DNA of 64,000 nt from Candidatus Gastranaerophilales bacterium (GTDB lineage: Bacteria; Cyanobacteriota; Vampirovibrionia; Gastranaerophilales; Gastranaerophilaceae): the NCBI GenBank assembly GCA_944324305.1, contig CALUVV010000006.1, positions 1 to 64,000 on the forward strand, in the 5' to 3' direction. The translations under genes were made by a program, and so were the position numbers. Numbering within the stretch: the stretch's first letter is position 1; each line of letters opens with the position of its first letter. Below the pieces are notes generated by a model. It did not search any database. It was not told the origin of the DNA and saw nothing but the letters and a program-made list of their open reading frames with translations. Below, piece after piece: positions 1 through 13,484 of the stretch.

Positions 1-617
1 GAAAAAATTTCTGTAAATTATTTGAACGTCACGCCAATATCATGAGCGGCAGTGATGTATGCAGCGGCAGTGTAATCAGTAATGGTACAACCGACTTTTC
101 AAATAAATCACCTGACATTACATTACGAAACGGCTTACGTATTTATAATATGCATAACGACGCAGGAGCTATTTCTATGTTATCTAATAATACTCAGGGC
201 GGAGTATATGACGGTGTACCTAATACTAATTCCTACGGCTACACAGTCTATGTAGATATCGACGGCTCCAAAGGCGATTCTCAATTGTGGAGCGATGTTT
301 ATCCCTTCTACATAACTTTATCGGGTAAAATCATTCCCGCCTACGATACATCTAATCTAAATCAAAGCGGCGGTGACAGTGCTCGTCATTTGCAGGTGAG
401 CGTAGAGAATGAGAATTACAACAGTGGAAAACGTAGTATCAAATGGCTTGCTAAAAGTGTTCCCTTTAAAGAAGGTGCTTGTATCGCAGGTTACGTGGGT
501 GACGCAACCCCTTATTGCAAAAATGGGACATCCTATACTAAGGCCGGAGAATGTACGACAAATTACAATTCAATGTGCCGTGTAAAACAGATACAGCCTG
601 TAAAGTTTTTCTTCTAA
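1..617 (+). CDS. Pilin-like secreted protein, C-terminal part (5' end outside window)
   Basis: The frame is open from base 3 to the stop at 615-617, and the start lies before the window. The encoded C-terminal domain is nearly identical to residues 340-537 of the long pilin-like protein at 9340-10953. Both share GGVYDGVPNTNSYGYTVYVD, DSQLWSDVYPFYITLSGK and the closing KQIQPVKFFF. The paralogue has a prepilin-type N-terminus and a Cys-rich middle, so this gene probably does too. Four cysteines near the C-terminus could form disulfides outside the cell. A strong hairpin terminator follows at 662. I infer a surface or pilus-associated protein; its ligand or partner cannot be seen. An internal ATG at 42 exists, but the frame upstream continues the paralogue alignment, so it is not the true start. 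Confidence 0.8.
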   Translation, partial: KNFCKLFERHANIMSGSDVCSGSVISNGTTDFSNKSPDITLRNGLRIYNMHNDAGAISMLSNNTQGGVYDGVPNTNSYGYTVYVDIDGSKGDSQLWSDVYPFYITLSGKIIPAYDTSNLNQSGGDSARHLQVSVENENYNSGKRSIKWLAKSVPFKEGACIAGYVGDATPYCKNGTSYTKAGECTTNYNSMCRVKQIQPVKFFF

Positions 618-744: not shown

Positions 745-789
745 ATGGAACAATTAATTAATACATTCGGGGGGGGGGCAATTCTCTAG
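745..789 (+). CDS. Poly-G leader ORF of phase-variable pilin (OFF frame)
   Basis: This short frame has a good ribosome binding site (AAAGGAGC, ATG 745). It encodes MEQLINTF, then a Gly run made by ten G (769-778), then AIL and TAG at 787-789. Adding one G, or removing two, changes the reading to ...GGGGNSLAPKPAFTLAEV and joins the leader to the pilin frame that runs to 1463. With nine G a different stop (TAA) is reached. So only one of three frames gives the pilin. I read this as the 5' end of the following gene in a switched-off state, not as an independent peptide gene. Confidence 0.7.
   Translation: MEQLINTFGGGAIL
769..778 (+). repeat. Homopolymeric G10 tract (slipped-strand switch)
   Basis: Ten consecutive G lie inside the leader reading frame. 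The tract and the 18 bases after it (TCG10 then CAATTCTCTAGCTCCT) recur at 13412-13440. Long G runs in coding DNA are classic phase-variation tracts in other bacteria. Here the surrounding frames behave accordingly. Confidence 0.85.
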
Positions 790-9272: not shown

Positions 9273-9339
9273 TATATTGAAATTGTTTTAAAAATATGAT
9301 ATACTGATATTGTACTATTGAGCAAAAGGAGCTGTTTTT

Positions 9340-10953
9340 ATGAAGAAGTTTATCTTGCGCCCGTTTTCGGGGGGGGGGCTTTTTAAAGCTTACCAATCAA
9401 GGGTTTTCGCCTATACGTTAGCCGAAATTATTGTAGTTATGTTGATTATTGCGGTAATAGTTGCGGTTTCAATCGGTATTACCAAAAATAAATTAAACAA
9501 TGTTGTCTCGTATACTTACTATTCTGCATACACAACATTACGTAAAATTTCAACGGAAATGCTTGCAGACTTTGATCCTAAAGATGAAGATTACATGACA
9601 TTTAACTCAGGTGATAAAGCTGCATCTTTTAAAGATATTTTTAATTTATCAAATTTTGTTCCTGCAGCTTATGCAAAATTTATACCTAATGACGAGATTC
9701 ATCAATTTATGTGTATTGACAATATCCAACCGAGATATTGTTGGGAAACTGACAAATATGTTTGTCCTCCTCAATCCTGCCCTATAAAGTGCCCGAATGG
9801 AACTATTTCTTATACAGGTAAATGTTCTGTAACTTGTTGGAACGGCTCAACAGCTTCAAGTGCTTCCAGCTGTCCACCGAAGATACCTTGTTGGGACGGA
9901 AGTTATGCAACCAGTCAGTCAAGATGCCCTCAAAAAATTACCTGTTGGAACGGCAGTTTTGTAACTAATGAAGCAAATTGCCCGCCATCTGTAACTTGCT
10001 GGGACGGCTCTAAAAAAGGAAGTTATAATGATTGTCCTGCATGCCAAAATGTTCCGTCAACTATCCCCTGCGGGCAGACTTGGAACAGTCAAACCTGCAG
10101 TTTAGACGGAACGGCTACGGTTTGCGCTGACGGACAACATTTGAACAGCAGCTGCCAGTGTGTTAATACCTGCCCGGAATACCCCGGATGCGGGAAAACT
10201 TGCGATAATGAAACCGGTATAATCAGTGATATTACAGGTTTTATTCGTTCCTGCGGAGATGAAACTTATGAGTGGAGTGAAGAACAGTGCAAATGCATAC
10301 CTTCTCCGCGTACTTTGCCTCGTAAAGGTGATAATTTCTTTAAACTATTCGAGGCTCACGCAAATACAATAGAAATCGACGGTATTGAACCTGGTAAAGG
10401 AAGTGTTATAAGTGATAATACAACTGATTTTTCCGATAAGAAACCTGATTTAATTTTACGTAACGGTTTACGTATCTATAATATGCATACCGATGCCGCT
10501 GCAATACCTCAACTGGCAAATAATACTCAGGGCGGCGTTTATGACGGTGTTCCCAATACCAATTCTTACGGTTACACAGTCTATGTAGATATTGACGGCG
10601 CAAAAGGGGATTCTCAATTGTGGTCTGATGTATATCCTTTCTACATTACACTTTCAGGAAAGGTTATTCCCGCTTACGACCGCAATGCTAACCCTGACGG
10701 AAGCGGCGGAGACAGTGTAAGACATTTACAGGTCAGCGTAGAAAACGAAAACTACAATAGCGGTAAACGTGGTATTAAATGGCTTGCTAAAAGTGTTACC
10801 TTTAAGGAAGGAGCTTGTATTGCAGGCTATGTAGGCGATGCTACTCCGTATTGTACTACCGGTGAATCATATAACAAAGCGGCTGAATGTACTACAAACA
10901 ATAATTCTACTTGTACTGTTAAACAGATACAGCCTGTTAAGTTTTTCTTCTAA
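9340..10953 (+). CDS. Long Cys-rich pilin-like protein, phase-variable (ON)
   Basis: 537 residues. The N-terminus reads MKKFILRPFSGGGLFKAY, where the Gly run is encoded by a G10 tract. The prepilin helix FAYTLAEIIVVMLIIAVIVA follows at about 24-43. A middle region (about 135-310) holds short repeats with CW(N/D)GS and paired cysteines, about every 19-20 residues. The C-terminal domain (340-537) is shared with the gene at 1-617. Here ten G keep the signal peptide in frame, so the gene is ON; a change of one or two G would stop translation early. The ribosome binding site is AAAAGGAGC. A terminator follows. I infer a surface-exposed, disulfide-rich pilus or adhesin subunit. Confidence 0.85.
   Translation: MKKFILRPFSGGGLFKAYQSRVFAYTLAEIIVVMLIIAVIVAVSIGITKNKLNNVVSYTYYSAYTTLRKISTEMLADFDPKDEDYMTFNSGDKAASFKDIFNLSNFVPAAYAKFIPNDEIHQFMCIDNIQPRYCWETDKYVCPPQSCPIKCPNGTISYTGKCSVTCWNGSTASSASSCPPKIPCWDGSYATSQSRCPQKITCWNGSFVTNEANCPPSVTCWDGSKKGSYNDCPACQNVPSTIPCGQTWNSQTCSLDGTATVCADGQHLNSSCQCVNTCPEYPGCGKTCDNETGIISDITGFIRSCGDETYEWSEEQCKCIPSPRTLPRKGDNFFKLFEAHANTIEIDGIEPGKGSVISDNTTDFSDKKPDLILRNGLRIYNMHTDAAAIPQLANNTQGGVYDGVPNTNSYGYTVYVDIDGAKGDSQLWSDVYPFYITLSGKVIPAYDRNANPDGSGGDSVRHLQVSVENENYNSGKRGIKWLAKSVTFKEGACIAGYVGDATPYCTTGESYNKAAECTTNNNSTCTVKQIQPVKFFF
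9369..9378 (+). repeat. Homopolymeric G10 tract (ON phase)
   Basis: Ten G encode part of SGGG at residues 10-13 of the long pilin-like protein. Unlike the tracts at 769, 11187 and 13414, ten G here preserve the downstream pilin frame. Confidence 0.85.
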
Positions 10954-11003: not shown

Positions 11004-11028
11004 GGTGCCGCTTTTGCCGGCACCTTTT
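11004..11028 (+). terminator. Rho-independent terminator after long pilin-like gene
   Basis: A 7-bp stem GGTGCCG / CGGCACC with a 7-nt loop is followed by TTTTCCTTTTTTT. It is in the same relative place as the terminator at 662. Confidence 0.85.
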
Positions 11029-11102: not shown

Positions 11103-11204
11103 ATGACAACAAATGTAACAAAACAGATGCCGTTATATCAAAAGTTTCATAAAACTTTTGTTGCAGTGTATACGCACGTAGTGCTCGGGGGGGGGGCGTT
11201 TTAA
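11103..11204 (+). CDS. Poly-G leader ORF upstream of pilin (OFF frame)
   Basis: A 33-residue frame with a strong ribosome binding site (AAAGGAGC) before ATG 11103. It encodes MTTNVTKQM..., then THVVLGGGAF and TAA. The G10 tract is at 11187-11196. With eleven (or eight) G the frame stays open without a stop for 33 more codons and runs in frame into ATG 11297 of the pilin. At ten G it ends two codons after the tract. The DNA around THVVLGGG is identical over 26 bases to the leader at 13330. It may be a leader peptide in its own right or the alternative N-terminus of the pilin. Confidence 0.6.
   Translation: MTTNVTKQMPLYQKFHKTFVAVYTHVVLGGGAF
11187..11196 (+). repeat. Homopolymeric G10 tract
   Basis: Ten G follow the sequence TACGCACGTAGTGCTC. 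That prefix contains the palindrome TACG-CA-CGTA directly before the tract. The same 26 bases, including all ten G, occur at 13398-13423. Confidence 0.85.
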
Positions 11205-11229: not shown

Positions 11230-11257
11230 TTGTGAAATTCAAAAAATCTGTTATAAT
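11230..11257 (+). promoter_or_regulatory. Internal promoter between poly-G leader and pilin
   Basis: TTGTGA (11230-11235), a 16-nt spacer and TATAAT (11252-11257) followed by GGTGAT. The same box with the same spacing and the same GGTGAT precedes the pilin at 13491. It would let the pilin be transcribed without the leader. Confidence 0.5.
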
Positions 11258-13329: not shown

Positions 13330-13434
13330 ATGAAAAAGATTGAAGCAGAACAGGCACATGAGTTCAGAAAAATTTGCGGCATTTGTGTTGAAGTGCCTAC
13401 GCACGTAGTGCTCGGGGGGGGGGCAATTCTCTAG
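13330..13434 (+). CDS. Poly-G leader ORF upstream of pilin (OFF frame)
   Basis: A 34-residue frame with ribosome binding site AAAGGAGC, ATG 13330, ending THVVLGGGAIL then TAG. The G10 tract is at 13414-13423. One extra G would read on through NSLAPARFFPSCKIH... without stops and into ATG 13491 of the pilin. The first part of the cassette matches the leader at 11103 and the part after the tract matches the leader at 745, so it is a mosaic of the two. Confidence 0.6.
   Translation: MKKIEAEQAHEFRKICGICVEVPTHVVLGGGAIL
13414..13423 (+). repeat. Homopolymeric G10 tract
   Basis: Ten G follow CTACGCACGTAG (an inverted repeat CTACG-CA-CGTAG) and TGCTC. It is the fourth tract of exactly ten G in 13 kb. 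Confidence 0.85.
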
Positions 13435-13456: not shown

Positions 13457-13484
13457 TTGTAAAATACACAAGAGGTGTTATAAT
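13457..13484 (+). promoter_or_regulatory. Pilin promoter, leaderless type
   Basis: TTGTAA (13457-13462), a 16-nt spacer and TATAAT (13479-13484) lie exactly 6 nt before ATG 13491. Transcription from here would begin at the start codon. So the pilin may be made from a leaderless message when the leader frame is OFF. Confidence 0.6.

Follow-up and report, generated by a model that had tools for sequence, protein, structure and literature searches.

A G10 tract in frame in a pilin-like gene, within a probably phase-variable and default-OFF pilin repertoire of a Gastranaerophilales genome

Pilin variation in Neisseria proceeds by pilE/pilS recombination and involves a guanine-quartet element, and 115 phase-variable genes are counted in N. 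meningitidis. Campylobacter strains carry 5–81 phase-variable genes each, and the commonest tract lengths are 9 (53%) and 10 (26%) (PMC6321876). An experimental precedent from a gut commensal is provided by Bifidobacterium breve, in which pilus genes are switched by G-tract slippage and the resting length is mostly one value, with 93% G10 at one locus (PMC9187656). As for Gastranaerophilales, no account of phase variation was found in the open-access literature.

The sequence under study (the window) comprises the 64 kb at the start of contig 6 in a genome of 2.197 Mb. It contains 12 overlapping matches to runs of eight or more G, while 0.15 were expected from shuffles. Exact runs in the whole genome number 169 for G10, six for G11 and one for G13, and a genome-wide search for exact G9 runs yielded none. 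On contig 1 (397 kb, 35% GC), 45 exact-G10 runs were counted and zero of G7, G9 and G11. At least one exact-G10 run occurs in 29 of the 33 genomes of the genus, with totals of 148 (G9), 1623 (G10) and 150 (G11); that is, 84% of the G9–G11 runs are exactly ten nucleotides long. Within the order, C-G10-C is common in two genera, this one and g7; in a few further genera it is sparse, and most have none or almost none. One relative is labelled 'Fusobacterium sp. CAG:439', which is probably a misnomer. Loss of mismatch repair was rejected as a cause of the tracts, MutS being present in tract-rich and tract-poor genomes alike. As in contingency loci, the repeats lie within coding regions far above chance, and the gain or loss of a unit toggles a long frame.

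The features of the 9340 gene and of the other tracts of the window are collected in Table 1. A preliminary description had reported a G10 tract in an open frame of 537 residues, and the sequence confirms both: the tract begins 29 nt 3′ of the ATG, and the frame is open as far as the stop at 10953. The ten Gs had been described as glycines, which is right for nine of them (three glycines), while the first G ends a Ser codon (...TTT TCG GGG GGG GGG CTT TTT AAA...). Judging by the sequence, the unit is complete, with promoter-like sequence, ribosome-binding site, ATG, leader, tract, pilin-like body and terminator-like hairpin. The N-terminus consists of the leader and then A/YTLAEIIVVMLIIAVIVA, with a helix predicted at 3–22, and the prepilin motif leads us to expect removal of the leader before YTLAE. 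The putative mature protein has a predicted hydrophobic N-terminal helix, CWxGS-type Cys repeats and a conserved C-terminal domain, which is common to about a dozen paralogues. The 9340 protein matched no Pfam or NCBIfam model; its neighbors 11297 and 13491 match PF07963. The structure model of the 9340 protein had a mean pLDDT of 50.7, a confidence too low for a fold search.

Table 1. Features of the 9340 gene and the other G10 tracts of the window.
Feature	Position	Strand	Remark
G10 tract, leader ATG 745	769–778	+	pilin frame to 1463 OFF at G10, ON at G11/G8
Sigma70-like promoter of 9340 gene, TTGAAA-17-TATACT, extended -10	9277–9305	+	consensus match only
Ribosome-binding site aaaaggagc	9324–9332	+	sequence
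537-aa Cys-rich pilin-like gene, ON (in frame at G10)	9340–10953	+	
24-codon leader with tract, MKKFILRPFSGGGLFKAYQSRVFA	9340–9411	+	sequence
G10 tract, C-G10-C	9369–9378	+	sequence
Mature pilin-like protein of 9340	9412–10950	+	low-confidence model
Intrinsic-terminator-like hairpin 3′ of 9340 gene	11004–11024	+	
G10 tract, leader ATG 11103	11187–11196	+	fused frame to 12025 ON at G11/G8
G10 tract, leader ATG 13330	13414–13423	+	fused frame to 14264 ON at G11/G8

All three other tracts of the window have the same length as that of 9340, as had been claimed. At 769, 11187 and 13414, the frame from the upstream ATG hits a stop 5–8 nt beyond the tract, and 9340, which is in frame at G10 as these loci are not, can rightly be called the ON version of the same switch. 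The description of the three loci as OFF holds for 769, which is closed and has no downstream bypass, but is weaker for the other two. In these, the pilin's own ATG (11297 and 13491, respectively) and a promoter-like sequence (11230–11257 and 13457–13484) are located 3′ of the tract, so these two pilins may be produced independently of tract length. TATAAT or an in-frame ATG follows the tract in about 11 of 62 tract-bearing pilins, and OFF may be incomplete at those genes. Both promoter-like sequences lie inside leaders and encode a recurring 'CYNxD' peptide, and leaders like those of 11187 and 13414 recur at several other loci.

The tracts are mostly found in leaders of pilin-like genes. About 860 kb (G000 contigs 1, 2 and 6; L031–L050 and L104–L121) contained 88 prepilin-type N-termini, of which 62 carry a G or C tract and 26 do not, the tractless ones having mostly short leaders. 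In the pilin repertoire of G000 contigs 1, 2 and 6, the N-termini are conserved and the C-terminal parts are variable. Contigs 6 and 7 both start in similar large pilin C-termini (window 3–617; G000:C7:6–614), so contig ends seem to fall in this large-pilin repeat family. Among tract-bearing pilins, the median distance from ATG to tract is 28 nt and the median leader is 25 aa.

Tracts were assigned to genes by an upstream ATG with a ribosome-binding site in sampled stretches of three genomes, with roughly 1 Mb of the window's genome sampled for tracts and frames. Of 89 tract-bearing pilins framed in this way, 88 were OFF at G10 and ON at G11/G8; 9340 was the sole pilin ON at G10, and none was ON at 9. 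The paralogues are non-independent, and hence the nominal binomial value for this frame rule was given no weight. However, among the pilins, tract starts fall on each of the three codon positions, and both gene orientations are represented, with prolines encoded by C10 leaders; common descent by itself would therefore not produce a single frame sum. The four pilins whose tract measured G11 were ON, as was the one with G8. Most tracted non-pilin genes are in frame at G10 and have the opposite default (ON) to the pilins; they include two GT2 glycosyltransferases with the tract within the domain, a GT9 enzyme, an AAA ATPase and others, while gene 46436 is not in frame at this length. In-frame G10/C10 tracts of glycosyltransferase and AAA ATPase genes were located at L034, L115, L111 and L044.

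The tracts lie on one strand per replichore, and pilins of the opposite strand carry C10. On contig 1, the genes are distributed evenly on both strands and the long G runs are all on one. Among the 62 sampled tract-bearing pilins of the window's genome, one strand class had G runs in 52/52 cases and the other had C runs in 10/10, the class labels here being derived from the G strand, so that independent evidence comes from the skew analysis only. Two genomes that have long contigs show a change of tract strand at two places. In one of them, both changes fall at the minimum and maximum of cumulative GC skew, which indicates that the G runs are on the leading strand. The dnaA gene was rejected as an origin marker because it was not at the strand switch, and GC skew was used. 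The right flank C-R-N4-T-AAGCTYC is common to tracts in both gene orientations. Several orthologous pilin pairs are alike on one side of the tract and unlike on the other, and in 21 paralogue pairs the right sides match and the left sides are unlike. This pattern suggests that leaders have been exchanged at the tract.

A comparison of two sister species paired 21 tracts, of which 16 were G10/G10 and five differed by 1–2 Gs. Tract length thus differs between relatives while the flanks are conserved, as in contingency loci, and the 9340 pair is G10/G10. One pilin locus (G000:C1:170823 and L198) has G8 in one species and G10 in the other, in surroundings that are 98.9% identical, and may perhaps reflect a recent transfer. 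Strain-level variants were sought in viral_contigs, and none were found there.

The proposal that the frame, and not the length, had diverged at 9340 is supported by its orthologue in the sister species (L076/L149), which is 89% identical and also G10, yet OFF. Before the mature start, the orthologue has 27 nt, G10 and 31 nt, and 9340 has 29 nt, G10 and 30 nt, a net difference of +1 nt. Since the tract length is equal, indels in the flanks have moved the frame of 9340. In this genome, the large Cys-rich paralogues that carry a tract number 12, of which 11 are OFF at G10, 9340 being the only one that is ON; two more large paralogues are tractless. In another large pilin leader (L177, on G001 contig 79), the left arm and the tract are tandemly duplicated, with G8 followed by G10. 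One ON and three OFF loci are not a snapshot of randomly flipped switches: G10 is the resting length, and 9340 represents a heritable frame change.

Based on the above results, we suggest, with a probability of about 0.78, that the tracts mediate poly-G slippage phase variation of a default-OFF pilin repertoire in which 9340 is ON by default. The tract would act as a contingency switch within the part of a type IV pilin-like gene that encodes the cleaved leader, replication slippage altering the run by one or two Gs. In nearly all pilins, the frame would be closed at the resting G10 (OFF) and opened by the less frequent lengths G11 and G8 (ON), and a cell would produce only a few pilins of the large repertoire. 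Different pilins may thus be displayed at a given time, as had been proposed. In 9340, small indels beside the tract would have shifted the frame, so that the resting length is ON and slippage would switch the gene OFF. The tract precedes the prepilin cleavage motif, and length changes should therefore leave the mature pilin unaltered. This reading is based on the anatomy of the loci, on the uniformity of tract length and frame, on the strand polarity and on length differences between species that would toggle frames; within-population slippage, expression following the frame, cleavage of the leader and pilin function are inferred. Slippage phase variation explains the position of the tract, the frame logic, the surface-gene targets and the differences between species.

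Several other explanations were considered. That the tracts are truly G11 and undercounted in the assemblies is scarcely credible. Nearly every pilin would open if the length were G11 throughout, but a miscounted G11 is hard to reconcile with the glycosyltransferases that have the tract inside a Pfam domain and are intact at G10. In addition, lengths of G8, G9, G11 and G13 were called as well, and separate assemblies, SPAdes MAGs among them, give the same modal length across most of the genus. Recoding seems distinctly improbable: G10 or C10 would be slippery for the ribosome (−1) or for RNA polymerase (+1), and G10 pilins would be made at a low level from unchanged DNA. The uniform offset from G10 to G11 in 88/89 pilins is what a fixed recoding signal would require. 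However, recoding gives no reason for the strict replichore polarity, with G in leading-strand and C in lagging-strand pilins; G11 and G8 tracts are present in the DNA and ON, and the non-pilin genes are intact at G10 under ordinary decoding.

Strand polarity would be explained if C-G10-C were mainly a replication-oriented chromosome signal, or a small mobile or recombining module, that pilin leaders merely tolerate. The polarity is near-perfect and changes near the GC-skew minimum and maximum, the right flank is shared by both gene orientations, and leaders are swapped at the tract among orthologues and paralogues. Nevertheless, we consider this quite unlikely, because the tracts lie just behind surface-type start codons and follow one frame convention, neither of which a signal needs, and tracts are few or absent in several relatives whose genomes are largely complete. 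A more far-reaching but doubtful reading is that C-G10-C with AAGCTYC forms a dedicated leading-strand-oriented cassette, spread by recombination at the tract and held at ten Gs by a specific mechanism, and that each cell would express a random small subset of more than 100 pilin genes in a standard default-OFF frame. Finally, 9340 alone may be a frame-fixed, effectively constitutive pilin with a relic tract. The gene is ON at the resting length, its right flank ('ctttttaaagctta') deviates from the family flank, and a large pilin without a tract is kept in other genomes (L150, L156), although this genome also has such pilins (L178, L179). Since its C-G10-C is still perfect and slippage by one G would close the frame, we regard a relic as possible but somewhat unlikely.

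The mode of action under slippage phase variation is of a known kind, that of simple-sequence-repeat contingency loci. As far as the open-access literature was searched, the scale, the uniform length, the default-OFF frame rule, the polarity and the host lineage are new. If the slippage reading is true, few poly-G phase-variation systems on record would be as large; the host belongs to a little-studied lineage of gut bacteria with cyanobacterial kinship, and about 170 replicate loci in one genome would be available for studying slippage equilibria and replication direction in contingency genes. The uniform length, uniform OFF frame and strict polarity make such questions directly testable.

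With the contingency genes of Campylobacter, the system shares poly-G tracts, a low-GC genome and, under the slippage reading, translational ON/OFF switching of genes (PMC6321876). It differs in having about 170 tracts instead of 5–81 phase-variable genes, and 84% G10 in the genus instead of 53% G9 and 26% G10; lengths so much more uniform are compatible both with strong constraint and with a sharp equilibrium of slippage. As in Neisseria pilE/pilS (PMC3547852), pilins are diversified, G-rich DNA lies by the pilin gene and copies appear to exchange sequence; in place of one expression site with silent cassettes, however, each of many complete genes here has a tract of its own. The sortase-pilus switch of B. 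breve is similar in its gut commensal host, pilus gene, intragenic G10/G11, frame-dependent ON/OFF states and mostly single resting length. Two sortase-pilus loci were studied there, and a uniform default-OFF frame and replichore polarity are not among the features described in the available part of that report (PMC9187656); here, about 170 tracts occur, mostly in type IV pilin-like genes.
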